From contig WIUZ02000001.1 of the NCBI GenBank assembly GCA_015956445.1, positions 3,968,001 through 4,032,000 on the forward strand: a DNA stretch of 64,000 nucleotides, in the 5' to 3' direction. This DNA is from Thelephora terrestris. Taxonomy: Eukaryota; Basidiomycota; Agaricomycetes; Thelephorales; Thelephoraceae. Below are positions 5,306 through 50,063 of the stretch, in pieces. The notes under the pieces are model-generated. The model worked only from the letters and a program-made list of their open reading frames with translations. It had not been told where the DNA came from and ran no database searches. Made by a program: the position numbers and the translations under genes. Position 1 is the first letter of the stretch, and the number at the start of each line of letters is the position of its first letter.

Positions 5306-6485
5306 TGAACGCATAACTCACCTTGCGTCCACGGTGCCTGTTCCCTCGACCTCCTATTGAACACGAACCCTAGGAAAGATGTTCACCGAAGCAACCGTCG
5401 TCGCCAGTGCAATTCCAGGCTGGCCCTGGTCGTTCGATCCGTTCACCGTACGTCGGCGTTCCTTCGACTTCTTCGACGTCCGTTCCCCGGTATTTTCGTC
5501 TCCTTCGACACTTAAGCTACTTGGAGCTCTTGACTTATCGAAGGTTCGCCGTCGAAACAACTGCGGACCATGGAGTTCGGAGACAGGGACATCGCGCATT
5601 TCTTCGCCAGGGTTGGAGTCGACGAAAAAAGGAGTCCTGTGCACGAGCATCGTGATCTGAACGTACCTCTGTCAAATGTCACGCCTTTCTACCAGACGAT
5701 CCCTTTGCCTTGGCAGACAAGCTACCAGCGCCCGCTTGATTGCCCCCACAAGATCTGCGTCGTGCTGATCACCCTCTGAAAGAACACAAACAAATAGGAT
5801 CGGGTACCCAGCACCCCTGAAATTGCCGGAGGGCATCCGGCTGGACGCACGACCCAAAACGTGGATTCTCGGCCTCCTGCCCATTAGCCCCTGGGTCGTC
5901 CACCTCACAACCTTCCACGACCCTCGATGAAATTTGCGTGTGCAATCGATTGTCACGTTCTTGTTTCTCCCTCTAGTCTTTCCACCGGCTTCTGTTCTGT
6001 CGTATCTGCATTTGGCCTTTTCAACTTATCTGTGTGCGTGTTTCTCTTTCTTCTTGCGATGTTCTCTTTGCAATGTACACGAGAATTACACATTCGAGCT
6101 GAAACAAAAACCACCATCTCAGCCCTAGGATGGCAGATGTTCTCGCCAATCTGGCCATCTATCGTTTGTTCTATGTTCTGTCGGTGCACGGTTTTCAGGT
6201 AACAAAGGTGGTGTACTGCTTAAGGCGCTCCGTGAGGTGCGCTTTTGCTTGGCGAGGCGGCGCCATGTTGGTACAAACGGTTGCCAGTAAACCCATCAGA
6301 CATTAGAAGCGGCAATGCATGACAACAGCGGAAGGCAGAGAGACAGATGTCATACAGTATAGACCAACAACTAGCAGCGGAACAATAAAATACAGGACTA
6401 TGGGAAGTTACAGAGAGTAAACCATTGGAATGGGAGCGGATAGGAAAGAAAGGAGTGAAGTAAATTGAGCTCAGGAAATGGACAA
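5306..6485 (-). repeat. NLR downstream-flank repeat, copy 1
   Basis: This sequence follows the stop of NLR 1 and recurs elsewhere. Bases 5306-5476 resemble 14930-15085 (shared run around the cgtcgtcgccag / gcaattccaggctggcc segments). Bases about 5490-6480 resemble 28891-29890 (shared tatcgaaggttcgccgtcga, gtttgcaatgtaca-type and cggttttcaggtaacaaagg segments). A short minus-strand frame at 5354-5650 is partly conserved between copies, but there is too little to call a gene. It behaves as the 3' part of a duplicated NLR unit. Confidence 0.7.
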
Positions 6486-14290: not shown

Positions 14291-14929
14291 GGGTAGAGTG
14301 GCCCTGACAGGTCACATCCGACAACGACGGAGTTCAACAGGATGGTGACGCGTGGGGCGACCAGGTCGTGGAGGATTTTGTGGAGGTCTGCGCGATGGAC
14401 CTGATAATAAGGAGCGCCGTGCTCCTTCTCCGCGACGCCCTCCCACTTCGTGAAGCTGATCTGCTCGCCGGTGGAGTATCTCCTCATGGTCGCACCCTTT
14501 CCTCAGGATGCCCGCGCCGATTTCGGGCCCCATCATGGGAAAGGACTCGACGATGGTCACGCGGTGGCCGGCCTGGGTGAGACAGAATACCGCAGCCGAC
14601 TACGATAACAACAAGAGCAAGTGCAGCCTTTCGAGACCCGTAGATAGACTTGGGGTTCGTGGCGGCGTCAGAGACAGAGGTAGACATAGTGGGAGACGAA
14701 GGAGCCAAGAGTAGAGAGCCAGTACATCAAGCCCAAGCTCGGAGGTGCAGATTTATATGGTGCAACGAGCAGAAAACGGAATGAATTGGTAGCATGAGAT
14801 CAAGAGCAATACCACCTTTTTCAAGTTGTTCCGCCCGCCCGCAGACCTGATTTTAGACTCGTTACCCTGGCGCTTATCCCACGGGAACGAGTTGGAGGAA
14901 GCTTCCGCGCAACACACCTCCATTGAACG

Positions 14930-15085
14930 TTTGAGAGGTTAACTCACCTTGCATCCACGATGTCTCCTATTAAACGCAAACCCCCGGATTTGTTCGCCGA
15001 AGCGTTCGTCGTCGCCAGCGCAATTCCAGGCTGGCCCCGGTCGCTCGATCCATTCACCGCACGTCGGCGTTCCTGCGACTTCTTG
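14930..15085 (-). repeat. Fragment of the NLR downstream-flank repeat
   Basis: About 155 bases similar to 5306-5476 of the NLR 1 flank (shared ttaactcacc…gcatccac…, gcgcaattccaggctggcccc, cgcacgtcggcgttcc). Homology ends at about gacttctt. The continuation of this flank, as found after NLR 1, resumes only at 28891, beyond the palindrome. The fragment is therefore the far end of the NLR 2 flank, separated by inserted DNA. Confidence 0.7.
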
Positions 15086-15271
15086 CACTTGGATGCCCGA
15101 TCCGCCATCCTATCACTCACCTTTCCCAAGGTGAAACCCACATATTTCGGTTGGTCGGGATGTGCGCTGTGTGTCAAACGTAATAAATTTGGAAAACCTT
15201 CCCCCCGCCGGATGCACAGGTTTGACCGTGCCCACTTCAAGCTTGGGCCCCGCTGCCTACGTGTGTTCAAC

Positions 15272-15557
15272 CCCGGTAAGAAATTCGTTTACTGCCAGTG
15301 ATCGGTAGCGATCCTGGTCGATGATAATGACTCCTCGCGATCCTCAGAAACGTCCAGCGATTTGAGCGCTATTTTGTCGTATTCAACATGTATTTTCGCT
15401 TAGTATTTTTAAATAATCATGAATATTCTAATATTTCCGGAGTGACGCAACCTAACAAAAACTTCTAAGTCCAAGAGACTGTCTGTACTCCCACGTAAGT
15501 CTATCGTCCCTCGTGTTGTCCTCATAAGATTGATAATTTGTTGGACCTAGGATAAGT
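15272..15557 (+). repeat. Left outer terminal region of the transposon
   Basis: Non-coding 286 bases from the terminus cccggtaag to the transposase ATG, with several copies of a gcgatc/cgatc motif in the first 90 bases (ggtagcgatcctggtcgatg, ctcgcgatcctc, cagcgattt). Short subterminal repeats of this sort are the transposase-binding sites in CACTA-related elements. An AT-rich promoter-like stretch lies at 15380-15440. Confidence 0.6.
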
Positions 15558-18500
15558 ATGCCATGGTGTCAGTGTGATAAATGTGATGGAGGAAAGTCGG
15601 TGTCTCCAGCCACTTTATTTCGGCATCGAAAAAGGACGGCCGCACGCTTGCATCTTGGCGGCAGGCGGTCCCCCGGCGTCGCGTCCCCTCCTCTGATGGA
15701 TCTTGACGTAAATAGACGTCCAGAAGAGGAGGATACGCAAGATGATGATAATGAAATGATGCAATCAGATCATGTACGTACGCGCACTTTAATCTTATCA
15801 GCCCCCGCATATATCGTGTTCTGAATCTATGTAATCTATGTAGGAGGACGAAGGAATGCAAGAAGAAAACCGGGGACGTTTAACTCCCCTGCAGACGTCC
15901 CAACGTCCCCCATCTCCTCCAGTCCGTTCCCGACCCTCTTCTCCTCGTTCCTTGTCCCGTCCTCCTCGTTCCCGGCCCTCCTCTCCTCCGTTGGATTTTG
16001 ACCACAGTGACCACGGGGATGAACGGATACAGCACCCACCACTTGTAGCTGAGTATCCGATAGCTACGCAACCCAAGATAAGGACCGCTATCGAGTTTTC
16101 CCGGCTGCTCGAAACCTCGACCCTAGCATCCCAGTTTGGTCCCGAGGAGCTCGCGGAACTGCTCGAGCCTCGGGAACACGAGTCTACACCTCCCGACGAC
16201 CCCAAATTAAAGTTATCTTTGCTCAACTATATCACGCTGATGGGTTCTTCTCAGGACGCCTACGAATCAACCCGCCAGAACCTGCACCAGTGCTATCCGG
16301 ATATCGACCTGTTCTCCTATTATCAGGTCGAACAACGAGCTCGTGTCCTCTCTGGTCTTCTCACTTGGGAGCATCACATGTGCATCCGGTCTTGTGTCGC
16401 GTTTACTGGACCCTATGCGGACCTCGAGCATTGTCCCGATCCGGAGTGTGGGGAACCTCGGTACAAGGAAAAAGATCTTCGGGAGTCTGACGGCCTCAGG
16501 AAGGTTCCCCGACAGGTCTTTACGACGTTTCCGGTTGGTCCACAGCTTCAGGCTCGCTGGAAAAATTCCGAAACAGCAAAGGATATGTCCTACCGGTGGG
16601 AGAAGACTGAGGATCTCTTGCGCGAACGGACCAACGGTAACGGACCTCCCGACGAATTGGACGACATTCTCTGTGGCGAAGCCTACCTGAACCTTGTCGA
16701 CAATGACGAAATCAGGCAGTATGACTCTGTTCTGATGCTATCTATCGATGGCACGCAACTCTACAAGAGCAAGAAATCCGACTGCTGGATCTATATCTGG
16801 ATTCTCGTCGACCTCGCTCCGGATAAACGTTACAAGATCCGGAACATTCTACCTGGAGGCGTTATCCCGGGTCCAAATCACCCGGGAAATATCGATTCAT
16901 TCCTCTTCCCTGGCTTGGCCCATGTCTCTGCTCTCCAGCGCGAGGGTTTGCCTATCTGGGACGCCTACATTCGAGTACGTGCAATGTCATTTATTTTTAT
17001 TCTACTCGTCTTGGCGGACTCCATCGCCATGTATCCTCTCAGCGGATCTGTTGGTCACCACGGCCGTAAGGGCTGCCGGTTGCTATGCGGTCTTATCGGG
17101 CGTAACAAAGAGGGAGGGTCTCACTATTATCCGGTCCTTCTACGACCAAACGGGTTTGAAGTACATCGGACGGCCAATCATCCCGATATAGACGCATTCA
17201 ATCTCCCCACCCCAAACCCCGAGGAATACAAGAAGGATTTATTCGAGGTGATAACATCTATCTCTAATGCCGAGTATGAGCGAAACCGGTTTAGCTCGGG
17301 CATCGGGAAGCCAAGTATCTTCGCCGGAATCTCACGAATTCTACCCCTCCCGACCTGTTTTGCTGGGGATATAATGCACCAGCCGCTGATAAACCTCACG
17401 GGCCTCCTCCTCGATCTCTGGTGCGCGCGACCCAAAGCTCGCGCCTACGACAGCACGTCTTTCTGGCCTTGGGCCGTTCTTACGGGGAACGTCTGGATAC
17501 AACACGGCCGGGACGTTGTGGAGGCTGCCAAATATCTACCCACCTCTTTTGGCCGTGTCCCTCGAAACCCTGAAGAGAAGCTATCTAGTGGATACAAGGC
17601 TTGGGAGTTGCTATACTATATCTACGGCGAAGGACCGGGCCTTTTTTTCGGAATTCTTCCTACCGAGTACTATTCTCACTTCTGCAGACTTGTCCGGGCG
17701 ATCCGGATTATTTACCAGCGTGCTATCTCACGCGATCAATTGGCTGTCGCGCGTCGGCTTCTTCTCCAGTGGGTCCACGACTTCGAGGTGCTTTATTGTA
17801 GACGTGATCCAAACCGTCTTCATTTTGTACGTCAATGCGTCCACTCTGTTTCCCACCTTGCAGCCGAGACACATCGGCTCGGCCCCCTCTGGTTGTCATC
17901 CCAATGGACGATGGAGCGCGTAATAGGATATATGGGCTCCCTTCTCAAGCAGCCCTCAAACCCGTTTAGAAACTTTGCGGCGCAAACAAGAAGGGTCGCG
18001 ACCACAAACACCCTCATCGCTATGTGGCCGGAGTTCGAAAAACCGAAGGACGCTCCCAGGGGATCCAAGGATCTAGGCGACGGATTTTTACTCTTAGGGC
18101 CAAAGGACACGACACTCTACCGCCCCTCCTCTCCTTCCGAACAAAGGGCAATCGGTGTTCTCTCAAGCGACTCAGGGGACGACGAAAACACAAGTTCTAT
18201 CTACAGATGGGGACGTCTCAAAATTCCCAGCGAACAAATTGCAAGATCTCGGTGGAAAGAGATGGAACGATGTTCTGATATGGCAAGAACAGACCGTAAC
18301 GTTAAGGTACGCGACTCAATCAAATTCAAAATTTACCATCGTCTTCTAAATGTACCGCAGATCTCACATCATGGCGTCATTCACTTTGCCGAAGTGATGT
18401 TCTTCTTTACGAAGACTGTTGGAGGAGAAGCTGGAGCGTTCGCGCTCGTTTCAAAATTCTCCAGGCCGAACGACTACCTCCTTAGCAGTACGCAAGATAC

Positions 18501-18690
18501 ACTTATAGTGTGTAGGCATCAAGGAGAAGAAGGCTTGGTAGTTGTCGACGCAAAGTCGATACTTTCGGTAGTGGCAATGGTGCCGTTTCGGTATGCCATT
18601 GACGGCCTAAATAACTATTACTTCGTGATAGAACAAATAGGCCTAGATATAGTAGAGGTAGATACCCAGGAAGGCGAGGGGGAGACGTAG
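15558..18690 (+). CDS. Tnp2-family transposase, left copy
   Basis: Cut-and-paste transposase. ATG 15558 opens a short Cys/His-containing exon (MPWCQCDKCDGGK…LFRHRKR), spliced over 15774-15843 to the main exon (EDEGMQEENRG…), about 1020 residues in all. The Pro/Ser-rich segment is followed by the core with the family hallmarks SIDGTQLYKSKKSDCW, PDKRYKIRNILPGGVIPG, FPGLAHVSALQ, LSGSVGHHGRKGCRLLCG, YPVLLRPNGFE and CFAGDIMHQPLINLTGLL, then a C-terminal region ending SKFSRPNDYLLSSTQ…FVIEQIGLDIVEVD. The aspartates in the SIDG and GDIMH motifs are likely catalytic by family analogy. The frame is whole. Differs from the right copy at one residue (Thr for Ala in SIDG[T/A]QLYK). Confidence 0.92.
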
Positions 18691-18836
18691 CGGAAATAAT
18701 TAAATTCTTTTTCGGCCCGGTCGGCTTGACGTTGACATGACATCCCCAGATCCCCAAAAAAAAAAACATATCTTATCGCTCTCCTTCTCCCTCTCCCTTT
18801 GCACCCATCTCAATCCAACACTTTCCTCTCTGTGTT

Positions 18837-21096
18837 ATGTCTCGATTCGTTGCTATTCCTTCGCCTGGCTTCAGCTCGCCTACAAATAACTTGGACGGCT
18901 ATGTTTTTGAATCTCAGAACAATTGGTCTCTTCCCGCCTTATCAAAAAATCGCTCTGTTCTGGCTAGGGACGATCCCGACACCCCCCGTGTTTCTGGAGT
19001 CACTTCTGCATTCCACCATTCTTCGCCTTACGACTCTGGGTTCCATCACTCTGGATCTGGCAATGTCTCGCGTCACCTCTCTCGTCACTCTGATGATCTG
19101 GACACTCGTTCTCATATCTCTATCTCGTCTGACGGCCCTGATACAAACGACTCGCCCGAAGTAATTTATTTACGCAGGGAGAACACGAACTTGAAAATCG
19201 AATGCGCGATGCTTCGTGGTCAGATAACCGGTGTCAAGTACGTATCCATCTCTTCTTTGATCTCATCAATAAATTACTGACTCAATTGACAGTGATTCCT
19301 TTAAGGGCGTCGTCTCGTTGATGGAGAATACAGTAAAAACGACTGGCGACCAGGTCAAAGGAATGGTCGACCACGTCATGGCAAACGTGCCTGGCCCAGT
19401 CGGCGCAACGTCCCGATCCCCAAATGGCGGAATCCCCCTGGAGCCCGAAGAAGGAGATTACCCACTTGTCGAATGGTGGCAGGAAGGGATCTATAAAGGT
19501 ATCAAAAACGGGAATCGGCCCAAGGACAGCGACATGACCGGCCCCACTATGTGCCTGTTTATGGAGGACCAAAACGGGAATCAGATATCGGAAGGGATCA
19601 GAAACAGCCTTCGCAAGGATCTGTTCGCCTATTGGACTGGCGTACAGAGGAACGGAGAATTACTAACAACTCATTCAGATACAGACCTCGACAGGAAGGA
19701 GCACTTTCGCGAGACATTCGAGACCAAATACAGCTGGCTCCGCCTTTGCGAAGGCCATTGGAAGGTCGACCGACTGTGGATCAATTATTTTAGCAGCTGG
19801 AGGCGATCCCACAGCCCCGTTACCCCCACCAAGATTGATCAGATCCATCGGGAGCAATCTCTGCTCCCGAGGTCTGCCGTTGCCGACGAGCCTCACATCG
19901 CCCCTATGGGATCCAAGCGCAAGCTGGAAGTATCCGGTAACTTGAACGAGGACCCTTCAAAGCGCCTCAAATTGAAAGGAAAGGTGACGGTGGACATCAT
20001 GCAGCCGACCGACTTCCATCATAGTAAGCCCAAGAGGAAGCCCGTTGCAAAGATAGCAAAGGTATGTAATATTCCTTTCTGCCTTTCACACATTCACTAA
20101 TATCATCTAGGATCCGAGGTATTTTCTATTAAGTTATCGCGATTTACTCGGGATGGCACGCTCACATCCGTTTGATTTAGCGCTAGATCTACAAAGGCCC
20201 AGGTTGTCCCGCAGCCTTCGAATGCCCGGGTACGTGTCTATTGTGGTCGTCAGACCATACTAACTAACTAAAAACGGAATAGGATGCGCCGGTTGCATCG
20301 GGGAGTCGCTTGGTCCCCTCCAGTCCCCAATTCCCCGTTTTCCAGCCTTCATCCAGACAGGCCGCTTCGCCTACCCCCCCGCCGTCTCACGCTTCTGTTA
20401 ACCGCAACCTATCAAACGTTGCGCGCATCGCGCCTCTCGACATCGACTCCACCGCCTCGAACATTGCACGAATCTCGCCTCCCGACGTCATTCCCACCGC
20501 CTCGACTATTGCATCCGTCACGCCTCCCGACGTCATTCCCATTGTCCCGAAGCCGTCTACTGTTAGCCCCAGCACCCCGATTACCGTGCCCATTGCCCCT
20601 CCCGAAATTATTCCAGACAGCCAGATCGGGTCCCTCCCGGATTTCTATACGCCCCCTCCCGATGTTCCCCGGTTCACTCTCCTCAGCTCCGGTAGCGAGA
20701 CAGAGGAAGACTCCTCTGTTACTGCCCCTTCCGTCACTCCGGAGCCTGTTGTGCCGCCGCCGAGGAAGGTGACAGGGAACATCCCTTACAAGTAAGCATT
20801 TTCGCGCTAAAATCATTTCGGTTACTCGACTCACGCATACTTAGACAATATCTTACCGAAGACTGGATCAAGGCAGGCCGCGGAACCAAGGCCTCGTTCA
20901 ACAATTACTGGAAGGGACTCACGGACGTCGAGAAAGCCGTACGTACCATCCGTGTTGCACGATTTATCTTATCTCACACTTCGTTTGACACACAGGCCGA
21001 AAAAGCAAAACTGGTAAGTTCTATCTTTCCCTCCCATATCGCGATACTGACACGCCTAACTAACAGATGTCTACGCTCACTGGCGCCAAAAAGTAA
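18837..21096 (+). CDS. Transposon accessory protein, left copy
   Basis: Second gene of the element, likely a DNA-binding helper like TnpA of CACTA elements (inference from position). Eight exons join in one frame: 18837-19237, 19293-20061, 20111-20118, 20181-20229, 20283-20791, 20845-20938, 20996-21013, 21067-21096, about 625 residues. The start is Ser/His-rich, then a short coiled coil (YLRRENTNLKIECAMLRGQ), a mixed domain with many aromatic residues (WWQEGIYKGIKNG, YSWLRLCEGHWKVDRLWINYF), a basic run with a nuclear-localisation look (SKRKLEV, KRLKLKGK, KPKRKPVAK), a Pro/Thr/Ser-rich linker with repeated SPPDVIPTAS units, and a conserved tail (YLTEDWIKAGRGTKASFNNYW). Exons of 8 and 18 bases are unusually small. 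Identical in the right copy as far as I compared. Confidence 0.8.
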
Positions 21097-21179
21097 TTCC
21101 TATCGACCCAAAACGGAAAGAAGAAGCCCCAAAGAAGTATCGGATCGTCTGTAGTATTATGTTGTGTCGTCCAATCATG

Positions 21180-21366
21180 TACTTTTTAGTGATCGCCGTG
21201 AATCGACGGGAATCGATGTGAATCTCCCCAGATCGCCTTGAGTCGCCCCAGATCAATATGCCGCGAATATCGAATGTGAGATTTAGGCGAATCGAGTCGA
21301 CACAAGTCGACTGTCGTCTCCCCTGGTCACCAGGAATCGACAAGAGTCGACAATTTTATGTATATT
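21180..21366 (+). repeat. Inner subterminal repeats of the left transposon copy
   Basis: About eight copies of a gaatcga/gagtcga-like heptamer within 180 bases, mixed with agatcgcc, including two direct gtcgac palindromes. Their position, right after the accessory gene and before the expected element end, fits a helper-protein binding array. The terminus cttaccggg that should follow is absent. Confidence 0.6.
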
Positions 21367-22091
21367 CACTGGGGGCAAGGGGGTACTTACCCAGTGGGTA
21401 CATTGTGAGTTCATTGTGGGTTTTGAAACCATTTGCCCAGTTGTTACCCACCAGGTACTTTTTGGGTACTTTTTGAAAGATACCCATCAATTTGCCTGCA
21501 TTTTACCCACTGGGTACATGGTGGGTACTTTGTAAAAGTACCCACTCAGGAACCCAGTGGGTACTTCTTGAGCGAAACCCCTGGGTTCTTTCACAATTTA
21601 CTTTCCAAAGTGCCCATTACAAACCTGAGCTACTTGTTGAGAGTTCTTTCATAAAGTACCCACCAATCTGATCACAATGTACCCAGTGGGTTTTTTTCAA
21701 AGAACTCACAAAGAACTCACAGTGTGGCTCAGTTTCATCACAAACTCTCAAAGAACCCATTGAGTATCTGGTTGAGTACATTGTGATCAGAACAGTGGGT
21801 ACTTTATGAAAGAACTCTCAACAAGTAGCTCAGGTTTGTAATGGGCACTTTGGAAAGTAAATTGTGAAAGAACCCAGGGGTTTCGCTCAAGAAGTACCCA
21901 CTGGGTTCCTGAGTGGGTACTTTTACAAAGTACCCACCATGTACCCAGTGGGTAAAATGCAGGCAAATTGATGGGTATCTTTCAAAAAGTACCCAAAAAG
22001 TACCTGGTGGGTAACAACTGGGCAAATGGTTTCAAAACCCACAATGAACTCACAATGTACCCACTGGGTAAGTACCCCCTTGCCCCCAGTG
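21367..22091. repeat. Foldback core at the centre of the palindrome
   Basis: A 725-base unit with ends cactgggggcaagggggtac and its reverse complement. Arms of 297 bases (21367-21663, 21795-22091) are exact; the 131-base centre is only partly symmetrical (21668-21682 still pairs with 21776-21790). The arms are filled with tacccagtgggtac-type short palindromes. The CACTG ends, lack of coding capacity and foldback form are those of a non-autonomous CACTA-like MITE. A target duplication cannot be read because both flanks are mirror images. Confidence 0.65.
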
Positions 22092-22278
22092 AATATACAT
22101 AAAATTGTCGACTCTTGTCGATTCCTGGTGACCAGGGGAGACGACAGTCGACTTGTGTCGACTCGATTCGCCTAAATCTCACATTCGATATTCGCGGCAT
22201 ATTGATCTGGGGCGACTCAAGGCGATCTGGGGAGATTCACATCGATTCCCGTCGATTCACGGCGATCACTAAAAAGTA
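22092..22278 (-). repeat. Inner subterminal repeats of the right transposon copy
   Basis: Mirror image of 21180-21366: the same gaatcga/gagtcga heptamer array, followed directly by the foldback core. Confidence 0.6.
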
Positions 22279-22361
22279 CATGATTGGACGACACAACATA
22301 ATACTACAGACGATCCGATACTTCTTTGGGGCTTCTTCTTTCCGTTTTGGGTCGATAGGAA

Positions 22362-24621
22362 TTACTTTTTGGCGCCAGTGAGCGTAGACATCTGTTAGTT
22401 AGGCGTGTCAGTATCGCGATATGGGAGGGAAAGATAGAACTTACCAGTTTTGCTTTTTCGGCCTGTGTGTCAAACGAAGTGTGAGATAAGATAAATCGTG
22501 CAACACGGATGGTACGTACGGCTTTCTCGACGTCCGTGAGTCCCTTCCAGTAATTGTTGAACGAGGCCTTGGTTCCGCGGCCTGCCTTGATCCAGTCTTC
22601 GGTAAGATATTGTCTAAGTATGCGTGAGTCGAGTAACCGAAATGATTTTAGCGCGAAAATGCTTACTTGTAAGGGATGTTCCCTGTCACCTTCCTCGGCG
22701 GCGGCACAACAGGCTCCGGAGTGACGGAAGGGGCAGTAACAGAGGAGTCTTCCTCTGTCTCGCTACCGGAGCTGAGGAGAGTGAACCGGGGAACATCGGG
22801 AGGGGGCGTATAGAAATCCGGGAGGGACCCGATCTGGCTGTCTGGAATAATTTCGGGAGGGGCAATGGGCACGGTAATCGGGGTGCTGGGGCTAACAGTA
22901 GACGGCTTCGGGACAATGGGAATGACGTCGGGAGGCGTGACGGATGCAATAGTCGAGGCGGTGGGAATGACGTCGGGAGGCGAGATTCGTGCAATGTTCG
23001 AGGCGGTGGAGTCGATGTCGAGAGGCGCGATGCGCGCAACGTTTGATAGGTTGCGGTTAACAGAAGCGTGAGACGGCGGGGGGGTAGGCGAAGCGGCCTG
23101 TCTGGATGAAGGCTGGAAAACGGGGAATTGGGGACTGGAGGGGACCAAGCGACTCCCCGATGCAACCGGCGCATCCTATTCCGTTTTTAGTTAGTTAGTA
23201 TGGTCTGACGACCACAATAGACACGTACCCGGGCATTCGAAGGCTGCGGGACAACCTGGGCCTTTGTAGATCTAGCGCTAAATCAAACGGATGTGAGCGT
23301 GCCATCCCGAGTAAATCGCGATAACTTAATAGAAAATACCTCGGATCCTAGATGATATTAGTGAATGTGTGAAAGGCAGAAAGGAATATTACATACCTTT
23401 GCTATCTTTGCAACGGGCTTCCTCTTGGGCTTACTATGATGGAAGTCGGTCGGCTGCATGATGTCCACCGTCACCTTTCCTTTCAATTTGAGGCGCTTTG
23501 AAGGGTCCTCGTTCAAGTTACCGGATACTTCCAGCTTGCGCTTGGATCCCATAGGGGCGATGTGAGGCTCGTCGGCAACGGCAGACCTCGGGAGCAGAGA
23601 TTGCTCCCGATGGATCTGATCAATCTTGGTGGGGGTAACGGGGCTGTGGGATCGCCTCCAGCTGCTAAAATAATTGATCCACAGTCGGTCGACCTTCCAA
23701 TGGCCTTCGCAAAGGCGGAGCCAGCTGTATTTGGTCTCGAATGTCTCGCGAAAGTGCTCCTTCCTGTCGAGGTCTGTATCTGAATGAGTTGTTAGTAATT
23801 CTCCGTTCCTCTGTACGCCAGTCCAATAGGCGAACAGATCCTTGCGAAGGCTGTTTCTGATCCCTTCCGATATCTGATTCCCGTTTTGGTCCTCCATAAA
23901 CAGGCACATAGTGGGGCCGGTCATGTCGCTGTCCTTGGGCCGATTCCCGTTTTTGATACCTTTATAGATCCCTTCCTGCCACCATTCGACAAGTGGGTAA
24001 TCTCCTTCTTCGGGCTCCAGGGGGATTCCGCCATTTGGGGATCGGGACGTTGCGCCGACTGGGCCAGGCACGTTTGCCATGACGTGGTCGACCATTCCTT
24101 TGACCTGGTCGCCAGTCGTTTTTACTGTATTCTCCATCAACGAGACGACGCCCTTAAAGGAATCACTGTCAATTGAGTCAGTAATTTATTGATGAGATCA
24201 AAGAAGAGATGGATACGTACTTGACACCGGTTATCTGACCACGAAGCATCGCGCATTCGATTTTCAAGTTCGTGTTCTCCCTGCGTAAATAAATTACTTC
24301 GGGCGAGTCGTTTGTATCAGGGCCGTCAGACGAGATAGAGATATGAGAACGAGTGTCCAGATCATCAGAGTGACGAGAGAGGTGACGCGAGACATTGCCA
24401 GATCCAGAGTGATGGAACCCAGAGTCGTAAGGCGAAGAATGGTGGAATGCAGAAGTGACTCCAGAAACACGGGGGGTGTCGGGATCGTCCCTAGCCAGAA
24501 CAGAGCGATTTTTTGATAAGGCGGGAAGAGACCAATTGTTCTGAGATTCAAAAACATAGCCGTCCAAGTTATTTGTAGGCGAGCTGAAGCCAGGCGAAGG
24601 AATAGCAACGAATCGAGACAT
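22362..24621 (-). CDS. Transposon accessory protein, right copy
   Basis: Inverted duplicate of 18837-21096 with the same eight exons (for example first intron 24166-24220) and, in every stretch I compared, the same protein. The frame is whole. It converges with the left copy toward the foldback core, so transcripts of the two accessory genes run tail to tail. Confidence 0.8.
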
Positions 24622-24767
24622 AACACAGAGAGGAAAGTGTTGGATTGAGATGGGTGCAAAGGGAGAGGGAGAAGGAGAGCGATAAGATATGTTTTTTTTT
24701 TTGGGGATCTGGGGATGTCATGTCAACGTCAAGCCGACCGGGCCGAAAAAGAATTTAATTATTTCCG

Positions 24768-27700
24768 CTACGTCTCCCCCTCGCCTTCCTGGGTATCTAC
24801 CTCTACTATATCTAGGCCTATTTGTTCTATCACGAAGTAATAGTTATTTAGGCCGTCAATGGCATACCGAAACGGCACCATTGCCACTACCGAAAGTATC
24901 GACTTTGCGTCGACAACTACCAAGCCTTCTTCTCCTTGATGCCTACACACTATAAGTGTATCTTGCGTACTGCTAAGGAGGTAGTCGTTCGGCCTGGAGA
25001 ATTTTGAAACGAGCGCGAACGCTCCAGCTTCTCCTCCAACAGTCTTCGTAAAGAAGAACATCACTTCGGCAAAGTGAATGACGCCATGATGTGAGATCTG
25101 CGGTACATTTAGAAGACGATGGTAAATTTTGAATTTGATTGAGTCGCGTACCTTAACGTTACGGTCTGTTCTTGCCATATCAGAACATCGTTCCATCTCT
25201 TTCCACCGAGATCTTGCAATTTGTTCGCTGGGAATTTTGAGACGTCCCCATCTGTAGATAGAACTTGTGTTTTCGTCGTCCCCTGAGTCGCTTGAGAGAA
25301 CACCGATTGCCCTTTGTTCGGAAGGAGAGGAGGGGCGGTAGAGTGTCGTGTCCTTTGGCCCTAAGAGTAAAAATCCGTCGCCTAGATCCTTGGATCCCCT
25401 GGGAGCGTCCTTCGGTTTTTCGAACTCCGGCCACATAGCGATGAGGGTGTTTGTGGTCGCGACCCTTCTTGTTTGCGCCGCAAAGTTTCTAAACGGGTTT
25501 GAGGGCTGCTTGAGAAGGGAGCCCATATATCCTATTACGCGCTCCATCGTCCATTGGGATGACAACCAGAGGGGGCCGAGCCGATGTGTCTCGGCTGCAA
25601 GGTGGGAAACAGAGTGGACGCATTGACGTACAAAATGAAGACGGTTTGGATCACGTCTACAATAAAGCACCTCGAAGTCGTGGACCCACTGGAGAAGAAG
25701 CCGACGCGCGACAGCCAATTGATCGCGTGAGATAGCACGCTGGTAAATAATCCGGATCGCCCGGACAAGTCTGCAGAAGTGAGAATAGTACTCGGTAGGA
25801 AGAATTCCGAAAAAAAGGCCCGGTCCTTCGCCGTAGATATAGTATAGCAACTCCCAAGCCTTGTATCCACTAGATAGCTTCTCTTCAGGGTTTCGAGGGA
25901 CACGGCCAAAAGAGGTGGGTAGATATTTGGCAGCCTCCACAACGTCCCGGCCGTGTTGTATCCAGACGTTCCCCGTAAGAACGGCCCAAGGCCAGAAAGA
26001 CGTGCTGTCGTAGGCGCGAGCTTTGGGTCGCGCGCACCAGAGATCGAGGAGGAGGCCCGTGAGGTTTATCAGCGGCTGGTGCATTATATCCCCAGCAAAA
26101 CAGGTCGGGAGGGGTAGAATTCGTGAGATTCCGGCGAAGATACTTGGCTTCCCGATGCCCGAGCTAAACCGGTTTCGCTCATACTCGGCATTAGAGATAG
26201 ATGTTATCACCTCGAATAAATCCTTCTTGTATTCCTCGGGGTTTGGGGTGGGGAGATTGAATGCGTCTATATCGGGATGATTGGCCGTCCGATGTACTTC
26301 AAACCCGTTTGGTCGTAGAAGGACCGGATAATAGTGAGACCCTCCCTCTTTGTTACGCCCGATAAGACCGCATAGCAACCGGCAGCCCTTACGGCCGTGG
26401 TGACCAACAGATCCGCTGAGAGGATACATGGCGATGGAGTCCGCCAAGACGAGTAGAATAAAAATAAATGACATTGCACGTACTCGAATGTAGGCGTCCC
26501 AGATAGGCAAACCCTCGCGCTGGAGAGCAGAGACATGGGCCAAGCCAGGGAAGAGGAATGAATCGATATTTCCCGGGTGATTTGGACCCGGGATAACGCC
26601 TCCAGGTAGAATGTTCCGGATCTTGTAACGTTTATCCGGAGCGAGGTCGACGAGAATCCAGATATAGATCCAGCAGTCGGATTTCTTGCTCTTGTAGAGT
26701 TGCGCGCCATCGATAGATAGCATCAGAACAGAGTCATACTGCCTGATTTCGTCATTGTCGACAAGGTTCAGGTAGGCTTCGCCACAGAGAATGTCGTCCA
26801 ATTCGTCGGGAGGTCCGTTACCGTTGGTCCGTTCGCGCAAGAGATCCTCAGTCTTCTCCCACCGGTAGGACATATCCTTTGCTGTTTCGGAATTTTTCCA
26901 GCGAGCCTGAAGCTGTGGACCAACCGGAAACGTCGTAAAGACCTGTCGGGGAACCTTCCTGAGGCCGTCAGACTCCCGAAGATCTTTTTCCTTGTACCGA
27001 GGTTCCCCACACTCCGGATCGGGACAATGCTCGAGGTCCGCATAGGGTCCAGTAAACGCGACACAAGACCGGATGCACATGTGATGCTCCCAAGTGAGAA
27101 GACCAGAGAGGACACGAGCTCGTTGTTCGACCTGATAATAGGAGAACAGGTCGATATCCGGATAGCACTGGTGCAGGTTCTGGCGGGTTGATTCGTAGGC
27201 GTCCTGAGAAGAACCCATCAGCGTGATATAGTTGAGCAAAGATAACTTTAATTTGGGGTCGTCGGGAGGTGTAGACTCGTGTTCCCGAGGCTCGAGCAGT
27301 TCCGCGAGCTCCTCGGGACCAAACTGGGATGCTAGGGTCGAGGTTTCGAGCAGCCGGGAAAACTCGATAGCGGTCCTTATCTTGGGTTGCGTAGCTATCG
27401 GATACTCGGCTACAAGTGGTGGGTGCTGTATCCGTTCATCCCCGTGGTCACTGTGGTCAAAATCCAACGGAGGAGAGGAGGGCCGGGAACGAGGAGGACG
27501 GGACAAGGAACGAGGAGAAGAGGGTCGGGAACGGACTGGAGGAGATGGGGGACGTTGGGACGTCTGCAGGGGAGTTAAACGTCCCCGGTTTTCTTCTTGC
27601 ATTCCTTCGTCCTCCTACATAGATTACATAGATTCAGAACACGATATATGCGGGGGCTGATAAGATTAAAGTGCGCGTACGTACATGATCTGATTGCATC

Positions 27701-27900
27701 ATTTCATTATCATCATCTTGCGTATCCTCCTCTTCTGGACGTCTATTTACGTCAAGATCCATCAGAGGAGGGGACGCGACGCCGGGGGACCGCCTGCCGC
27801 CAAGATGCAAGCGTGCGGCCGTCCTTTTTCGATGCCGAAATAAAGTGGCTGGAGACACCGACTTTCCTCCATCACATTTATCACACTGACACCATGGCAT
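24768..27900 (-). CDS. Tnp2-family transposase, right copy
   Basis: Inverted duplicate of 15558-18690; ATG 27900, intron 27615-27684. All motifs listed for the left copy are present. It has Ala where the left copy has Thr, immediately after SIDG; the Ala form is what I recall as usual in the family, so the left copy is probably the mutated one. A second, silent difference lies at 27408. No frame break seen. Confidence 0.92.
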
Positions 27901-28186
27901 ACTTATCCTAGGTCCAACAAATTATCAATCTTATGAGGACAACACGAGGGACGATAGACTTACGTGGGAGTACAGACAGTCTCTTGGACTTAGAAGTTTT
28001 TGTTAGGTTGCGTCACTCCGGAAATATTAGAATATTCATGATTATTTAAAAATACTAAGCGAAAATACATGTTGAATACGACAAAATAGCGCTCAAATCG
28101 CTGGACGTTTCTGAGGATCGCGAGGAGTCATTATCATCGACCAGGATCGCTACCGATCACTGGCAGTAAACGAATTTCTTACCGGG

Positions 28187-28890
28187 CCTCAGGCCTCATT
28201 TCTTGCTCCGGTCCGCTGTAGACGCAGCGTAAGCCCTTTCACCCAATCCTTCTGGTGTCACAGATCTAGACGCTTCGGTGGTAGACATTTATTTTTTTCA
28301 GCGATGGTCGAGCCCCTTTCAAACCTGACTCCTTAATTGAACGAAAACCGACTCTCCTTGGCAACTTTTGGCTCAAAACCGCGTCTACGACTGTAATAGA
28401 GTCTATATCTGGGGGTGTGATATCTATTGGATGGTCTTACCATAGGTCCCATTCCAAGGTTTGTGGGCACTTACGAAATTAACTTTCACTCTCGTCGTAG
28501 GTGATTTGCGCCGGGAGAACGGTCCTGCGGCGATTCAAAGTCGATCCCAGCGAATTCAAGGGATTCGATCGCAGATCTACAACCCTTCAATTAGAGGCGA
28601 CGCGTGCGGGGATAGAAGGCGTCAGGGAAGACGGCGAGAAGGGGCTTGGGAGTACCCTGATCTTGACAGCACTCTGTGATTCTTTTGCGCTGTCGGGAGC
28701 TTTATCAGAGCTCGGACGGTACGGAACCTGACCATAAACTCCGGCAGTAGGCGTTCAATCGACGCTGAAGTCAAGGCAAGGCTATCGCTTGGCCACTAAT
28801 CAAACCCTGACTCTATGGATGCAACCCCTCATTTGGCCGTCGATCGAGTAGCCGGCCGTCTCGGAAGGGTGAGACGACACCAGTTGCACG
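28187..28890. other. DNA between the palindrome and the NLR 2 flank, no gene
   Basis: Seven hundred bases that are absent from the corresponding place after NLR 1. One plus-strand frame at about 28501-28731 has a protein-like composition but no start context, splice partner or recognisable motif, so I do not call it. Together with 15086-15271 it shows that more than the palindrome was added to the NLR flank. Confidence 0.4.
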
Positions 28891-29980
28891 ATCCCCCGGT
28901 ATTGTCGTCTCCTTCGACGCTTAAGCCACTTGGACCTCTTGGACTTATCGAAGGTTCGCCGTCGAAACAACTGCGGACCGTGGAGTCCGGAGACAAGGAC
29001 ATCGTGCATTTCTACGCCAGGGTTGGAGTCGATGAAAAAAGGAGTCCTGTACACGAGCATCGTGATCTGAACGTACCTCTGTCAAATGACAGGCCTTTCT
29101 ACAGGCCAGACGATCCCTTTGCCTTGGCAGATAAGCTACCAGCGCCCGCTTGATTGCCCCCCACAAGATTTGCGTCGTGCCGATTCCCCTCGGAAAGAGC
29201 ACAAGCAAATAGGATCGGGCACCCAGCACCCCTGGTCTTCAAGCGCGAAACATTGTCAGGAGGGGAACGACGGCGACGTGTCGAGGAGAGCGAGAGCCAG
29301 ATGGCGCTTGGGGGATCACTGAAGGGCATTCGGATGGACACAGGACCAAAAACGTGAATCTTTGACCTCCTGCTCGTTAGCTCCTGGATCGTACACCTCA
29401 CGACCTTCCACGATCGAACTTTGTGTGCGCAATCGATTGCCACGTTCTGTATGCGTGTTTCTCTCTCTTCTTGCAGTGCTTTCTTTGCAATGTACATGAG
29501 TATCACACCTTCCACCTGTCAAGGGAAAACCCACCACAACGGCAGTTGTTGTTGTCGACCCGACCATCCATCGTTCGTTCTGTGTTCTACCTGTGCACGG
29601 TTTTCAGGTAACAAAGGTGGTGTACTACTTGAGGCTTTCCGCGAAGTACTATTTTGCTTGGCGACGTGCCATGTTGATCCAAACGATTGAGAAACCCATT
29701 AGACATTAGAAGCAAGGCGTGTCAACAACGAAAGGCAGAGAGACGTATGAAACACAATATAAACCAACAACGAGCAGCTGAACAACAAAATGTAGGACTA
29801 CGGGAAGTTACAGAGAGTAAACCATTGGGAGAGGAGTGGATAGGAATGGAAGTAGCGAAGTGAATTGTGCTCAGGAAACGGACAATCGTCCAAGTGTGCT
29901 TTCGAGATCCTGAGGAGTACTAGACAACGCACCAGTCACAGGTGCTAGGAAAGGAGAGTCAACGGGTGCAAGGGACACAG
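28891..29980 (-). repeat. NLR downstream-flank repeat, copy 2
   Basis: Follows the stop of NLR 2 and is similar, with small gaps, to 5490-6485 after NLR 1 (shared cccccggtatt, tatcgaaggttcgccgtcga, gaacgtacctctgtcaaatg, cggttttcaggtaacaaagg, gggaagttacagagagtaaa). This puts copies 1 and 2 of the NLR unit in one duplication, including the 3' flank. Confidence 0.75.
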
Positions 29981-32869
29981 TTATTTAAGAGGGCTCAAGC
30001 GCTCACCGTCGGTATCTGATTCAACGGAGGGAGGGGGGCCCTGCATTGCTTCCTCAATTATCTGGAGGAGAGCCTTGCAAAGCCTGGGATCACCCAGGTG
30101 CCAGAACTTCTCGAAGATCTCTTGGGCGCGTAGAGCCTCGGATGCTGCATCTTTGAGCCTGCGTTGTCGATAATAAATCTCGGCCTGCAAATAGACTGCT
30201 AGACCAAGTTGATATGTGTCATCGAGTGCGAGGGGCTTGGCTTGTTCAATGGAAAGCTGTGCATCATCGAGTCGGCCTTCGCTGAGAAAAAGCTCCGCCA
30301 AGGACATTTGGATCCAAAACAGGAGATTACGGTTGCCGAGAGTGGATGCGATTCCGACAGCCATCTTGTAATTGTAAAGCGCCTTCTCTATCTCACCCTT
30401 GGAATGATATATATCACCAAGGGTTTGATGTAATTGCCAGACCCGATGTTCTTGGCCTTTCTCCGGGAGAAGTTTGAACACTTCGGCTATCGCTTCTTCC
30501 GCTGCATCAAGCTGTCCAGCTGCGTTTAATAACCGAGCAAGGGAAGCCAAACACCCCACACGGTCCATCGTTCTCCCAAGCCGCTCGTAAATTCCCATCG
30601 CTTCCCTCGCCTGATCTATCCCTTCCTCGTGACGGTTCAGAACCCTATTTGAATCGGATAGAGACTGCAAGATTTTAGCAACTTGGGAGTCGTTCCCCCG
30701 TTCTCGCTCAACCTTCAAGGCGTGCCCGAGGAACAATGCCTGTTCTGTGAAATTTCCGATTGCTCCGTACAAATAAGCAAGCCCGTACAAGCAATCAGGC
30801 TTGGAGGAATTATCATCGGAAAGTTCCTCAATGCTCTTCCTCAGCACGGTCGGCCGTGGTTTGTGCCACCAAAGGTAACCCATAAATCTGGCACAGGCAT
30901 ACCAGACATCATCCGAGCTGGGATCAGCGGAGGCGAAGACATCGAGTAAGTGCTCGACGTTCACATCCTCTGACATGATCCACCGCCCCTCTTGAGTGTC
31001 AAATTTGGTTGACAACCGGGCAAAGTAACATCCCTTGGTCGTGCACAGGAGTGGAGATGTCTTTGGGTCTTTGGGGCGGAGATGGTCTCGAAGGGGGGCG
31101 AGCATAGTGATGAATCCATTGCTGCGGTAGGCCAGGGAAAGCATGCAGAGCTTGTCAAAGATGTGGGTCCTGTCCGAGACCGTGGGGAACAACCACTCGA
31201 GGTTCTTCTCGTCGATGCCTTGCGGGTAGAAGGCGACGACTCCCAAAATCCCCATGGCGTCGGGCCCGAGCTTTTGGAACATCAGAGAGGCGAGCGAGAG
31301 CTCGATCGTGGCAGCCAGGCTCGTCTGATGCTCCGTCTGCAGTACCCCAGTTTGACGCTCCTCCCACTCCTTGACCAATCGATCGTTGTCCCACCTGTTT
31401 TGATGCGCGACAGTGGCTAGTAGGACGACTGAGAGGGGATGGAAGTCGAGTTCCTCTAGGATACCGCTCACCGATCCCGACTGCTTGCCGTACTTGTAGA
31501 TGCGATAGAAAGTGTCTTGTGCAGCCTCTGTCGACAGCGTCTGAACTTCAAGAGTTTCGCAATCCGGAGGGACAGTGGTGATGCGAGATGTGATGGCGAG
31601 GCAGATGTTGCTGAATTGGCTCAGCTCCTCCACCAGCCGATAGATCTCCCGCCCATTCGTCGCCTGTGGGTCGAGAATCGATTCGGCATTGTCGAGGAAT
31701 ATGAACATCTCCTTGGAAGATAGGAATGGTCGAAGAGGGGTAAAGTCCTCGGGGTTTTCGATCCCTGCCCCGATGGCCTTGGAAAGTCGAGAGAGGAAAT
31801 GGGGTCCCGAAGCTGGGAACTGATCGCAACGTATGAATCGGCGGTTATCTCCAAACCGTTCCTTTATGCGGTCGTGATGGAGGACGACTAGAGCGATGGA
31901 TGTCTTCCCGATGCCACCCGCCCCGATGAGAGCGACTGGGGTAAGATTTTCAGCGAAACCAACGATCTTTTCGATCAGTTCGCCACGACCGAAACAAGCT
32001 CTCGGGCGGGGGGGAGGTGATTCTCCGGATGTGCTGCATTTGAGTATAAGGCACTGTATGATCTAATGGTTACTATAGCGAACCTCGTTTGAGTCTAGGA
32101 AATAGTCAGGGTTCGTTCGGTCACAAATAGTGCGCAAGCGTTACTCACCGACGGATTCCTACCATCAGCCCCATCCTGACGTTCCACCAAAGTACGGTGG
32201 ATTTTCGAAGCGAGGTCCTGGGTGTTCAATACTGCCACATGAGTGTTCATCTCGAGCTCGGTCTGGGTACAGATCATAAGCGATGGAAATAAAGAGGTGA
32301 TAAAACGCACGTTAAAGACATGAAGGATCCTGTTAAGGTCCAACTTCCAGGCGGCGATCGTGTCTTTGTCGTCCTTCGCGTGGATTAGGCGAGACATAGC
32401 CCGTCTCTCGCCCAGCTTGTCAACTTCACTCTGGATCTCCGCCACAGTCCTACAATCGAAGCGATGGTAAGCGATTCGGGCTCAACGCGTACCCCCGCTA
32501 GTTAATCTCACGTTGTCAACTGTTCTATCGCCTCAAATAAAGACCCATTGAATCGGTCCGCTTGTTCACCGTTCATCCCCCGGTCTAGGGCCCTACAGAT
32601 GTCAGCGCAGGCCAATCCCAGTTCAACGTAGTCGGTTCTATTGGCCATATTCATAGAGCCCTGTTTATATCAGTCACAGACCGACAAACATGGGCTGAGA
32701 GGAAACACACTCTGACGATGGTGAGAAGGGTGCTGACGGAGCCAAAAACATTCCTCGCTGGTGCGACGCTCGGGCCCTCCTTCGCATGGTTTAGGGATTC
32801 GATGGCCGCGTTCAACGCTGAGAGGAACCTATCGCGTGCTTTTGGTCGCTGGGACTCGTTTGCATCCAT
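29981..32869 (-). CDS. NLR 2: NB-ARC and TPR protein with a different N-terminus
   Basis: ATG 32869. Five exons (32711-32869, 32512-32660, 32311-32449, 32149-32262, 29981-32062) give about 880 residues in one frame. The N-terminal 185 residues form a helical module unlike that of NLR 1 and 3: ARDRFLSALNAAIESLN, VELGLACADICRALDRGMNG, EAIEQLT, AAWKLDLNRILHVFN. I recall this module from agaricomycete STAND proteins and take it for a signalling domain. The NB-ARC follows: ACFGRGELIEKIVG, P-loop GAGGIGKTS, Walker B FIFLDNAES, ITSRITT, FHPLSVVLLAT. Then TPR helices. From about base 31333 to the stop the protein is close to NLR 1. It ends earlier than NLR 1 (…GERLSPLK); a further 3' exon is possible. 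The frame is whole. Confidence 0.88.
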
Positions 32870-33361: not shown

Positions 33362-36277
33362 TCAGGGATGGGATGGCCACTGAGATGCGTGATCAGGATC
33401 ACGAGGAGCATCCGCCGAGGTGCTGGACAAGGGGCCATGGGCTAGTAATAAAGGGGTAATTAGTGCGAGGGACGCGGTTTTTTCTGTTGGGAGCTTACCA
33501 TCGATATCTGGATCACCGGAAGGAGGGAGACTTTCCATTGCTCTTCCAACGTTCTGAGGGGGTACTTTGCATCTCCCGGGATCATCTGAGAACCCAAGCT
33601 TCTCCAAAATCTGTCCAACCCATGGAGCCTTGAAGCCGTGCTTCTCCGACATCTCTCGAGCGTACAGAACCTCGGACGCAGCATCTTCGAACCTGCGTTG
33701 CTGAGACCAAATCCTGGCCTGATGAATGGCTACCAGAGCCAGGTGAAACGTGTTACCGATCACAAGCGACTTGGCTCGCTCGAGGTGAATTTGCGCTCCG
33801 TCTAGATAGTCTTCGTCGAGTAAAAGCAACGCCAAGGATATATGGATCCCAAACAGGGTGTGGCTCCAGCTGAAAGTGGACGCGATCCCGAGGGCCACCT
33901 CGTAATGGTGCATCGCCTTCTCCCTGTTGCCCTTGGAACGATATATGTGACCAAGGACTTGATGAGATCCACAGACGTGAGCTTCTCGGTCTTCTTCCGG
34001 GTGGAGTGTGATTGATTCGAATATCACCTCTTCTGCGGCATCGACTTGTCCATCTCCCCACAACAATCCGGCAAGGGTTTTCATGCACAGTGCGCGTTCC
34101 ACATTATCACCTAGCCGCTCGTAAACTTCCGATGCTTCCCTTGCTTGGTGTATTCCTTCCTCAGAATGGTTCAGCATCCGATTTGCGTCGGCTAGGCTTC
34201 TTAACAGGAGACCAACCAAATGGCTGTCACCACGCCCCCGCTCGAGCTTCAAAGCGTGTTTGAGGAGCGATATCTCTTCTGTGTAATTTCCGATTGCATT
34301 GAACAAGGATCCAAGGTAGAGCAAACATCGAGACTTGTAGCGATGATCATCGGGGAGCGCCTCGATTTTAGCCCTCAGGAGAGTTTGTCGCGGTTTGTAC
34401 CATTCGAGGTAGCCCACAAATTTGAGGAAAGCATCCCAAATCTCGTCCGAGTCGGGATCGATGGCTGTGAAAATAGCGATCAGGTGCTCAACATTCACAT
34501 CCTCTGACACGATCCATCGCCCATCTCCAGGCCCATGTAGCTCGGGTTCGAGTCCGACCGACATCCAGGCGAAGTAACACTCTTTGGTCGTGCACAGGAG
34601 CGGAGATGACATTGGGTGTTGTGGGCGAAGATGGTCTCGGAGCGGGGCGAGCATAGTGACGAACCCATTGCTGCGGTGCGTCAGGGAAAGAATGCAGAGC
34701 TTGTCAAAGATGTGGTTCCTGTTTGAGACCGTAGGGAACAACCACTCGATGTTCTTCTCGTCGATACCTTGCGGGTAAAATGCGATGACTCCCAGAATGT
34801 CTCGGGCGTCGGGTCCAAGCTCTTTGAACATCGGAGAGTCGAGGGACACTTCGATCGTGGTGCCCAGGCTCGTTTGATGCTCCGTCCGCAGCGTGTCCGT
34901 TCGCCGTCCCTCCCATTCCTTCACCAATCGCTCGACGTCCCACCTGTTCTGTTGTGCGACTGTGGCGAGGAGGGTGACTGACAGTGGATGGAACTCCAAT
35001 TGCCTGAGGACGTGGTCCACCAAACCCGACCGCCCACACCTCTTGTATTTTTGATAAAACACGTCCCGGGCGGCCTCCATCGATAACGTCGGTATGTCGA
35101 GCTCCTCGCAATCGGGTGGGACGGTAGATATCCGCGATGTGATGCAGACACATATCGTCTCCAATTGACATAGCTCCTCCACTGAGGCATATATTTCCCG
35201 AGCGTCCGTCCCCTGTGGATCGAGGATTGATTCGGCGTTGTCGAGAACTATGAAAATCTCCTTTGAGGATAGGAATGGGAACAGATGCGCCAAATTGTCA
35301 GGGTTTTCGATACCAGCCCCGGTAACCTCGGAGAGTCGGCTGAGGAAATGCGAAAGCGTGGCTGGGAACTGGTCGCACCGGACGAAACGTCGGTTCTCCC
35401 TGAAACGTTGCTTGACTCGACTGTTATGGAGAACAGTCAACGCGATAGAGGTCTTGCCGATCCCTCCAGCACCAATCAGGGCCATCGGCTCCAGGTTCTC
35501 AGCTAGGCCAACGATTTTCTCGATCTCCTCATCGCGGCCGAAGCATGCCCTCGGCGCTGGAGGAGGTAATTCACCAGGCGCGCTGGCCGCAAGTATAACA
35601 GACTTAATTGCGGATTAGATCGCTGACCAAAGTCGAGCAATGTCACTCACTTGGCAATCGGAAACGGCGCTGTTTATGTCGCCCGTGAGTTCAGACACAA
35701 CTTTGCCATCCTCGGCGCTCCCCATGCATCCCATGTTTTCAAGTCGATCAGATACAGTCACGAGTTTATCTTTGATTCGTCCTAGAGAGCTGGGGAGGAT
35801 TGAATGCAGGATCAAGTAAAGTGGACCGAAACTGCTGACATGAGCAAGGCGTCGCTTCGTATTGATCGAGGGTTGTGAACCACGTTTCCGTCGTCCGCCC
35901 CTAGGCCCAACCTATCTAGTCCTTTCAACAGACCGTCAATCTGATCCTTTGTTACCGATGACTCCTGCTAGCAGGTCAGGAGGGTTTACATCGGAGAACC
36001 AGTGCCGCTGATCATACCTGGTGCAACTCCAGGAACGTTTCGACAGTGCGCTTGTGTCACGGAGTGAAATGGTGAGCCCAGGTAGTGTCGAAGAAAAAAA
36101 GACGGTGAGCAGGCTTACGGTTAGGGCTCTAATTTGATTCGCCATCGATTGCTCCGGCGATGTCTGCGTCCACGCTGGCTGGGACGCGGCAGAGTTCCCA
36201 CCGAATAGCTTGGCAGGGGCAGGTTGCAATCCGATATGGCCGCTTGGGCCCGAAGTCCCTTGAGAGGGGATAGACAT
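33362..36277 (-). pseudogene. NLR 3: NB-ARC/TPR body intact, N-terminal exons damaged
   Basis: ATG 36277 (MSIPSQGTSGPSGHIG…) matches the NLR 1 start. The NB-ARC/TPR exon (33362-35602, about 746 residues) is open throughout: ACFGRDEEIEKIVG, P-loop GAGGIGKTS, Walker B FIVLDNAES, ITSRIST, FHPLSVTLLAT, TPRs, and a tail ending DHASQWPSHP. The upstream exons seem decayed against NLR 1: the acceptor ctag|gctcac of NLR 1 intron 1 reads ctgg|gctcac here, the exon after it has an in-frame TGA, and two extra bases near 35830 shift the frame of exon 3. Either it is a pseudogene, or transcription starts late and gives an NLR without the N-terminal module, or another splice form avoids the damage. I favour N-terminal loss. 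Confidence 0.6.
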
Positions 36278-49707: not shown

Positions 49708-50063
49708 ACTTTTCGCTCTCATTCTCTCCCTTGTATGCATTGCATCTTACATATGTGATTGCCCATGTGCTATATTGGAATGAAATGACTGCACTGTTTC
49801 GTCATTCCGTAACCATTGCACGTCGAAACCAGAGCTCGTTTGACAAGGCCTCAGCGAGCGGCGAGCCTAATTCTATCGCACGGGCTAGGGACAATAAACT
49901 GGACATTGGAGGACCAGTGTCTAGTGCCACTTGCAGCGCTGACTGGTTTCTCTTCAAAAAGAATCCGAGACCCTTGAGCGCAACCGTCTACTTCCAGAGA
50001 TAGTCTGGTGCGTTCGAACGACGAAAAGCTAAATGTACATGGGACGCGAAAATCGAAAGTTCG
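49708..50063. other. Spacer after S18 with rearranged paralogue flank
   Basis: No gene. Bases 49840-50060 are related to 51680-51830 downstream of the second leucine-rich gene, but a segment of about 38 bases (49954-49991) is inverted relative to 51709-51747. Confidence 0.55.

Follow-up and report, generated by a model that had tools for sequence, protein, structure and literature searches.

A 12.9-kb near-perfect palindrome in Thelephora terrestris, probably formed by fold-back duplication of a CACTA-like transposon

Main finding

In a 64-kb window of Thelephora terrestris (the whole stretch of DNA that we analyzed), we found a near-perfect palindrome of 12.9 kb. Its presence in the sequence is confirmed. 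Directly visible are two long arms, an imperfect seed repeat and a spacer at the centre, a hairpin-rich block, open reading frames (ORFs) in both arms, and unrelated flanks. The evidence supports a Tnp2-type element that was duplicated as a giant inverted repeat. The explanation that we favor, and consider probable, is that fold-back synthesis turned a CACTA-like (Tnp2/TRC-type) DNA transposon into an inverted dimer and that a transposase cut at the 5' terminus set the edges. A fold-back origin is well supported; we infer both the synthesis itself and the role of the transposase at the edges. Near-perfect palindromes of this size are generally considered to be unstable, yet this one stands in the assembled sequence.

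Structure of the palindrome

The main features of the palindrome are:

15272-21663, plus strand: left arm (pairs with the right arm at 6,390 of 6,392 positions)
21795-28186, minus strand: right arm (from self-alignment and base-by-base pairing)
16050: arm mismatch, TpG in the left arm and CpG in the right; synonymous
16753: arm mismatch, CpA in the left arm and CpG in the right; T300/A300 in the transposase

Self-alignment of the window, which the initial annotation had proposed as a check, gave a single dominant inverted pair (15272-21685 and 21773-28186, 99.9%). That annotation had counted two mismatches in arms of 6,392 bases, and base-by-base pairing around the axis showed this to be exact. 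The mismatches are at 16050/27408 and 16753/26705, and they separate perfect runs of 778, 702, and 4,910 bp. An inverted match of this length and identity would not arise by chance. At both mismatches, the difference is what cytosine deamination in the left arm would give; we make this suggestion tentatively, as there are two sites and CpG holds 27% of the C/G bases.

Beyond 15272 and 28186, the flanks are unrelated (52 of 72 compared positions mismatch). The edges had been described as transposon ends that stop exactly at cccggtaag/cttaccggg. The exact stop and the unrelated flanks held up, but they do not prove that these are transposon ends: every palindrome's ends mirror each other, so the match between the outer ends is not evidence for it.

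Evidence for a fold-back seed

The centre of the palindrome contains:

21664-21685, plus strand: left half of an imperfect seed repeat (18 of 22 positions match 21773-21794)
21686-21772: spacer of 87 bp, non-palindromic, which we read as the fold-back loop; it shares a repeat family with the arm tails
21773-21794, minus strand: right half of the seed repeat, pairing with 21664-21685
21388-21691: hairpin-rich foldback block with ACCCASTGGGT motifs; part of it is mirrored at 21773-22070

The imperfect 22-bp inverted repeat, the 87-bp loop, and the hairpin-rich block bear out the earlier proposal of a foldback seed, which we place at the palindrome's centre. There are four mismatches within the 22-bp seed, while the arms differ at two of 6,392 positions (Fisher p = 1.6e-9). 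Because this mismatch density is far above that of the arms, the seed halves most likely predate the copying. If the seed is lengthened by 11 bp, then 29 of 33 bp match; within the spacer half, 34 of 44 compared positions mismatch. A spacer between older imperfect inverted homologies is the arrangement that characterizes a fold-back duplication. The chief alternative for the centre is that a perfect palindrome was trimmed later, which would also make it asymmetric, but trimming would be unlikely to leave a 29/33 inverted repeat at exactly this place.

The spacer aligns to the arm tail with a local score of 36 (null mean of 18.1), which was reached by 0 of 300 shuffles and by 0 of 38 other chunks of the arm. 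The ACCCASTGGGT motifs are at 21389, 21505, 21552, and 21681, with spacings of 47-129 bp. The block that holds the seed has a strong tendency to form hairpins, even when the mirror copy is left out: folded as DNA, a single arm tail (21380-21663) has z = -6.3, with 0 of 200 shuffles as good, and the arm tail together with the spacer and the right half of the seed has z = -7.1 (0/100 shuffles as good). The left flank has z = +0.2 (112/200 shuffles as good) and the right flank has z = +1.1 (17/20).

Termini and class of the element

Three features bear on the ends of the element:

15300-15375, plus strand: 5' subterminal-type motif cluster (3 plus hits, 0 minus); mirrored at the right end
21191-21354, minus strand: 3' subterminal-type cluster with a 10-bp period (9 minus hits); mirrored at 22104-22267
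21386-21397: weak candidate for the 3' terminus of the left element; mirrored at 22061-22072

The outer edges read CCCGGTAAG and start with CCC, and the CCC at 15272 would fit CACTA-like elements that begin this way. As described in PMC1636069, the terminal inverted repeat (TIR) of three animal TRC elements with Transposase_21 begins with CCC, and 7 of 14 copies of SmTRC1 have a 2-bp target-site duplication.

The motif clusters point inward from both ends of the element, as subterminal repeats should. With [CGT]CGAYYY, which we picked post hoc, after inspecting the sequence, there are inverted subterminal repeats with three plus hits at the 5' end and nine minus hits on the 3' side. In the left arm, clusters of at least three of these motifs within 50 bp lie at 15308-15357, by the outer end, and at 21206-21350, on the inner side; both are mirrored in the right arm. 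Elsewhere in the 64-kb window, there is just one cluster at this limit (43219-43230), and a 60-bp limit adds one more, at 15045-15097 in the left flank. A looser count of CGAY is less one-sided, with 4 plus and 2 minus hits on the 5' side and 6 plus and 12 minus hits on the 3' side.

A 3' terminus near 21394-21397 may perhaps survive in each arm. This location is plausible because the distances from motif to edge would be similar: the first motif is 36 bp from the 5' edge, and on the other side the distance is 44-47 bp if the terminus is at 21394-21397. Within 21100-21794, anchored comparison with the 5' terminus gave its best match at 21394, with a score that was reached by 9 of 60 shuffles; in reverse complement, the candidate reads CCCACTGGGTAAG / CTGGGTAAG, for comparison with the outer edge given above. 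We also sought an inner TIR by plain local alignment and rejected the best candidate (21065-21105), whose score of 26 was reached by 44 of 500 shuffles. We lean towards the view that each arm is a nearly complete element of ~6.1 kb followed by the foldback block. It is somewhat less likely that the foldback block is the element's own 3' tail and that the terminus was lost.

Transposase and accessory genes

The ORFs in the arms are:

15856-18690, plus strand: transposase, 944 aa, left copy (T300); Pfam Transposase_21, 26.6 bits (cutoff 28.6)
24768-27602, minus strand: transposase, 944 aa, right copy (A300); Pfam Transposase_21, 26.5 bits (cutoff 28.6)
19318-20100, plus strand: accessory ORF, 260 aa, left copy, from the ORF list
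23358-24140, minus strand: accessory ORF, 260 aa, right copy; protein identical to the left copy
20310-20795, plus strand: 161-aa ORF, left copy, from the ORF list
22663-23148, minus strand: 161-aa ORF, right copy; protein identical to the left copy

The transposase and accessory genes had been reported as open in both arms, and we agree: all three ORFs (944, 260, and 161 aa) are uninterrupted, with a single amino-acid difference overall (T300 or A300 in the transposase). The transposase genes begin near the outer edges and are directed toward the centre, so they are convergent. Their matches to Transposase_21 (E of about 4e-6) are just under the curated cutoff. The 260-aa and 161-aa ORFs have no match in Pfam with E up to 1. 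The 161-aa ORF is probably part of a spliced third gene; it contains three 45-bp tandem repeats (20412-20546). Across 14900-29300, there were no matches to Rfam at gathering scores.

CACTA-like transposases are recognized by a D, D, E triad in which C(2)C and H(3-4)H lie between the second D and the E. The 944-aa transposase has SIDG at 296, HSVSH at 663, and MERVIG at 686, among which we presume the D, D, E triad to lie. There is no C-x2-C motif within the 944 aa; C-x3-C is found at 176 and 407.

Two other approaches to the transposase were dropped. One was the idea that A300 is the consensus of the family; the Pfam scores do not separate the two copies (26.6 left vs. 26.5 right). A structure predicted for residues 230-760 without an alignment had a pLDDT of 35.7 and was set aside.

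Target site and surrounding sequence

Immediately next to the outer ends, we found no direct repeat of 2-9 bp. Scanning offsets from -15 to +19, we found TCA two bases outside of the ends, and CG (twice), CCGG, TA, AT, and AATT inside the arms. The repeats inside the arms are palindromic, and CG and CCGG are indistinguishable from arm sequence; a hit like TCA is expected by chance in about 1 in 5 cases over the 15 outside offsets. The 2-3 bp target-site duplication of CACTA-like elements is thus missing from the outer edges, or else it could be the palindromic CG/CCGG. The initial annotation had suggested that the palindrome might have come to this site as a single transposon whose terminal inverted repeats are 6.4 kb long; with no convincing target-site duplication, this is unsupported.

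Self-alignment of the window also identified a paralogue of the flanks:

5297-5819, plus strand: flank paralogue, a near-empty site

Within it, 5297-5473 corresponds to the left flank, ending at 15084 (78% identity), and 5485-5819 to the right flank, starting at 28894 (92% identity). The palindrome and a further 183 and 697 bp are absent from the paralogue. Because the two flanks are colinear in the paralogue, they appear to be one locus, which argues against a misjoin, although their identities differ.

Direct repeats of TTGCAC (15083-15088 and 28884-28889) are present at both breakpoints relative to the paralogue. They could be either the duplication from an older insertion or the scar of a deletion in the paralogue. 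We considered whether 15089-28883 is one transposon flanked by TTGCAC and rejected this: by eye, the 183-bp and 697-bp pieces do not have matching ends, and they have no excess of folding.

There is no evidence of a broken host gene at the palindrome's site. When joined, the flanks carry an open frame of 164 codons, but an equally long frame was found in 268 of 400 random joins of DNA from the window and in 11 of 200 letter shuffles, so we discarded the idea of an interrupted gene. This frame has no Pfam match with E up to 1.

Two short stretches of the right flank match the arm tail, one in each orientation: 28457-28485 (score 29) and 28312-28334 (score 26); the largest score among 59 controls from real sequence was 28. 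Related genes are on the minus strand at 6486-8642, 29981-31708, and 33362-35485. By eye, these are a STAND/NLR-type family, and the gene at 29981, the one that we scanned, matches TPR families. The palindrome is located on the 3' side of one copy. Farther away, two tandem copies of about 1.67 kb (49998-51662 and 51757-53422) are 87% identical and contain ORFs of 291 and 264 aa.

How the palindrome may have formed

We propose that the hairpin-rich block, on the element's 3' side, was broken or nicked, which would have left a single-stranded end. This end would have annealed to the imperfect inverted repeat of 22-33 bp, about 87 nt upstream, and would then have been extended through the element as far as its 5' terminus. 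The exact outer edges would be accounted for if the transposase cut at the 5' terminus, whether as the palindrome formed or when it later moved by its two identical ends. The outcome would be convergent transposase genes within a long inverted repeat. We favor fold-back synthesis because the older imperfect seed and the single-copy loop lie inside near-perfect copies. Human inverted duplications with a spacer and a short inverted homology have been ascribed to fold-back as well (PMC3907307).

There are two ways to complete this explanation. They are equally likely, and we view each as possible but tentative. In one, the palindrome formed elsewhere and arrived as a single transposon with two identical 5' ends, so that the arms are giant TIRs. 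In its favor, the edges fall at a plausible CCC terminus between unrelated flanks. Also, the bases past the candidate inner terminus (TG or TA) seem, by eye, to differ from those outside the outer ends, a weak hint that the 5' side is no longer where it was first inserted. Against arrival as a unit, there is no direct repeat at the edges: CG/CCGG is inseparable from the arm and TCA could well be chance. In the other, a single element was converted in place, its original right side was lost, and a cut by the transposase and end joining made the edge. The absence of a target-site duplication speaks for this, and the arm tail is weakly matched by the right flank at 28457-28485, with a score just above the top control. 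On the other hand, the right flank lacks both a motif cluster and an excess of hairpins, and an exact stop at the terminus demands an additional cut.

Explanations without fold-back synthesis fare worse. It is very unlikely that two complete elements inserted independently, in opposite orientations, with a foldback (MITE-like) element between them. In its favor, both motif clusters and the candidate inner terminus are present in each arm, but the mirror identity is unbroken from 16754 to 21663, which is 266-269 bp past the candidate terminus and would not be expected. An artefact of assembly or of fold-back or palindromic reads is quite unlikely, if a little less so, and such read artefacts are on record (PMC12870357, PMC6218980). 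Both arm mismatches set CpG against TpG or CpA. Miscalling of methylated CpG could produce mismatches of this kind. An artefact does not fit with unrelated flanks that are colinear in the paralogue (albeit at 78% vs. 92% identity), nor with an unpaired 87-bp loop, an imperfect seed, and edges at a plausible terminus.

We looked for relatives of the palindrome in two sequence collections, neither of which is meant for fungi: one stretch in viral_contigs and 13 stretches in genome_contigs had the pattern, and none were confirmed.

Potential for transcription and silencing

None of five poly(A)-like hexamers is found in 19493-21729 on the sense strand of the left arm. Because the genes converge and this region has no such hexamer, read-through across the centre is conceivable, if weakly indicated. 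If transcription did pass through the centre, it would yield a hairpin RNA, which could lead to RNA silencing. Loci with inverted duplications of transposons have been proposed as natural triggers of transposon silencing. We think it rather unlikely that the palindrome is a functional transposon with gene-bearing 6.4-kb TIRs that would move as a unit and also silence its own family via hairpin RNA, as a fungal counterpart of Mu killer built from a CACTA-like element.

Comparison with known systems

We did not find a fungal locus of this kind among the titles and abstract openings of the literature that we searched, and printed cases may exist. Judging from the Transposase_21 match, the fungal Plavaka and EnSpm elements probably belong to the same broad transposase clade as the palindrome's element. 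The reported termini are TGT..ACA or CATCA..TGATG for Plavaka and CAC..GTG for EnSpm (PMC12730594); these are not present at 15272, where the edge is CCCGGTAAG. SmTRC1 and other TRC elements have a Transposase_21-type protein and a CCC-starting TIR, both of which the palindrome probably shares, but as described in PMC1636069 they are not palindromic dimers, and the palindrome does not have their 2-bp duplication. Galileo-like foldback or long-TIR transposons also have long inverted-repeat ends, with reported forms of TIR extension (PMC4168063). Galileo belongs to the P superfamily, while the palindrome instead carries genes inside the repeat.

In human fold-back inverted duplications, as in the palindrome, the turn has a single-copy spacer and a short stretch of inverted homology, but those described extend over chromosome scales and their sequenced spacers measure 766-70,466 bp (PMC3907307). 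The palindrome's spacer is just 87 bp, and the duplication is bounded by a likely transposon terminus.

The closest known case is Mu killer, a derivative of MuDR in maize. It too is an inverted duplication of a transposon in which both outer TIRs come from the end with the transposase gene: both are from the mudrA end, two partial copies end in the inverted duplication, and the duplication was proposed as the source of a hairpin RNA (PMC3440606). The palindrome has this architecture, with a shared end that is likely a transposon terminus. The systems differ in that Mu killer is a Mutator element in a plant, has an inverted duplication that covers roughly 1,300 bp of its transposase gene, and is described as having a central portion that resisted sequencing (PMC3440606), while the palindrome is CACTA-like, its arms are 6.4 kb long and include the full transposase ORF, and its centre is readable. 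If our explanation is correct, then the imperfect seed, short loop, and hairpin-rich block of this locus record how an inverted transposon dimer can arise.
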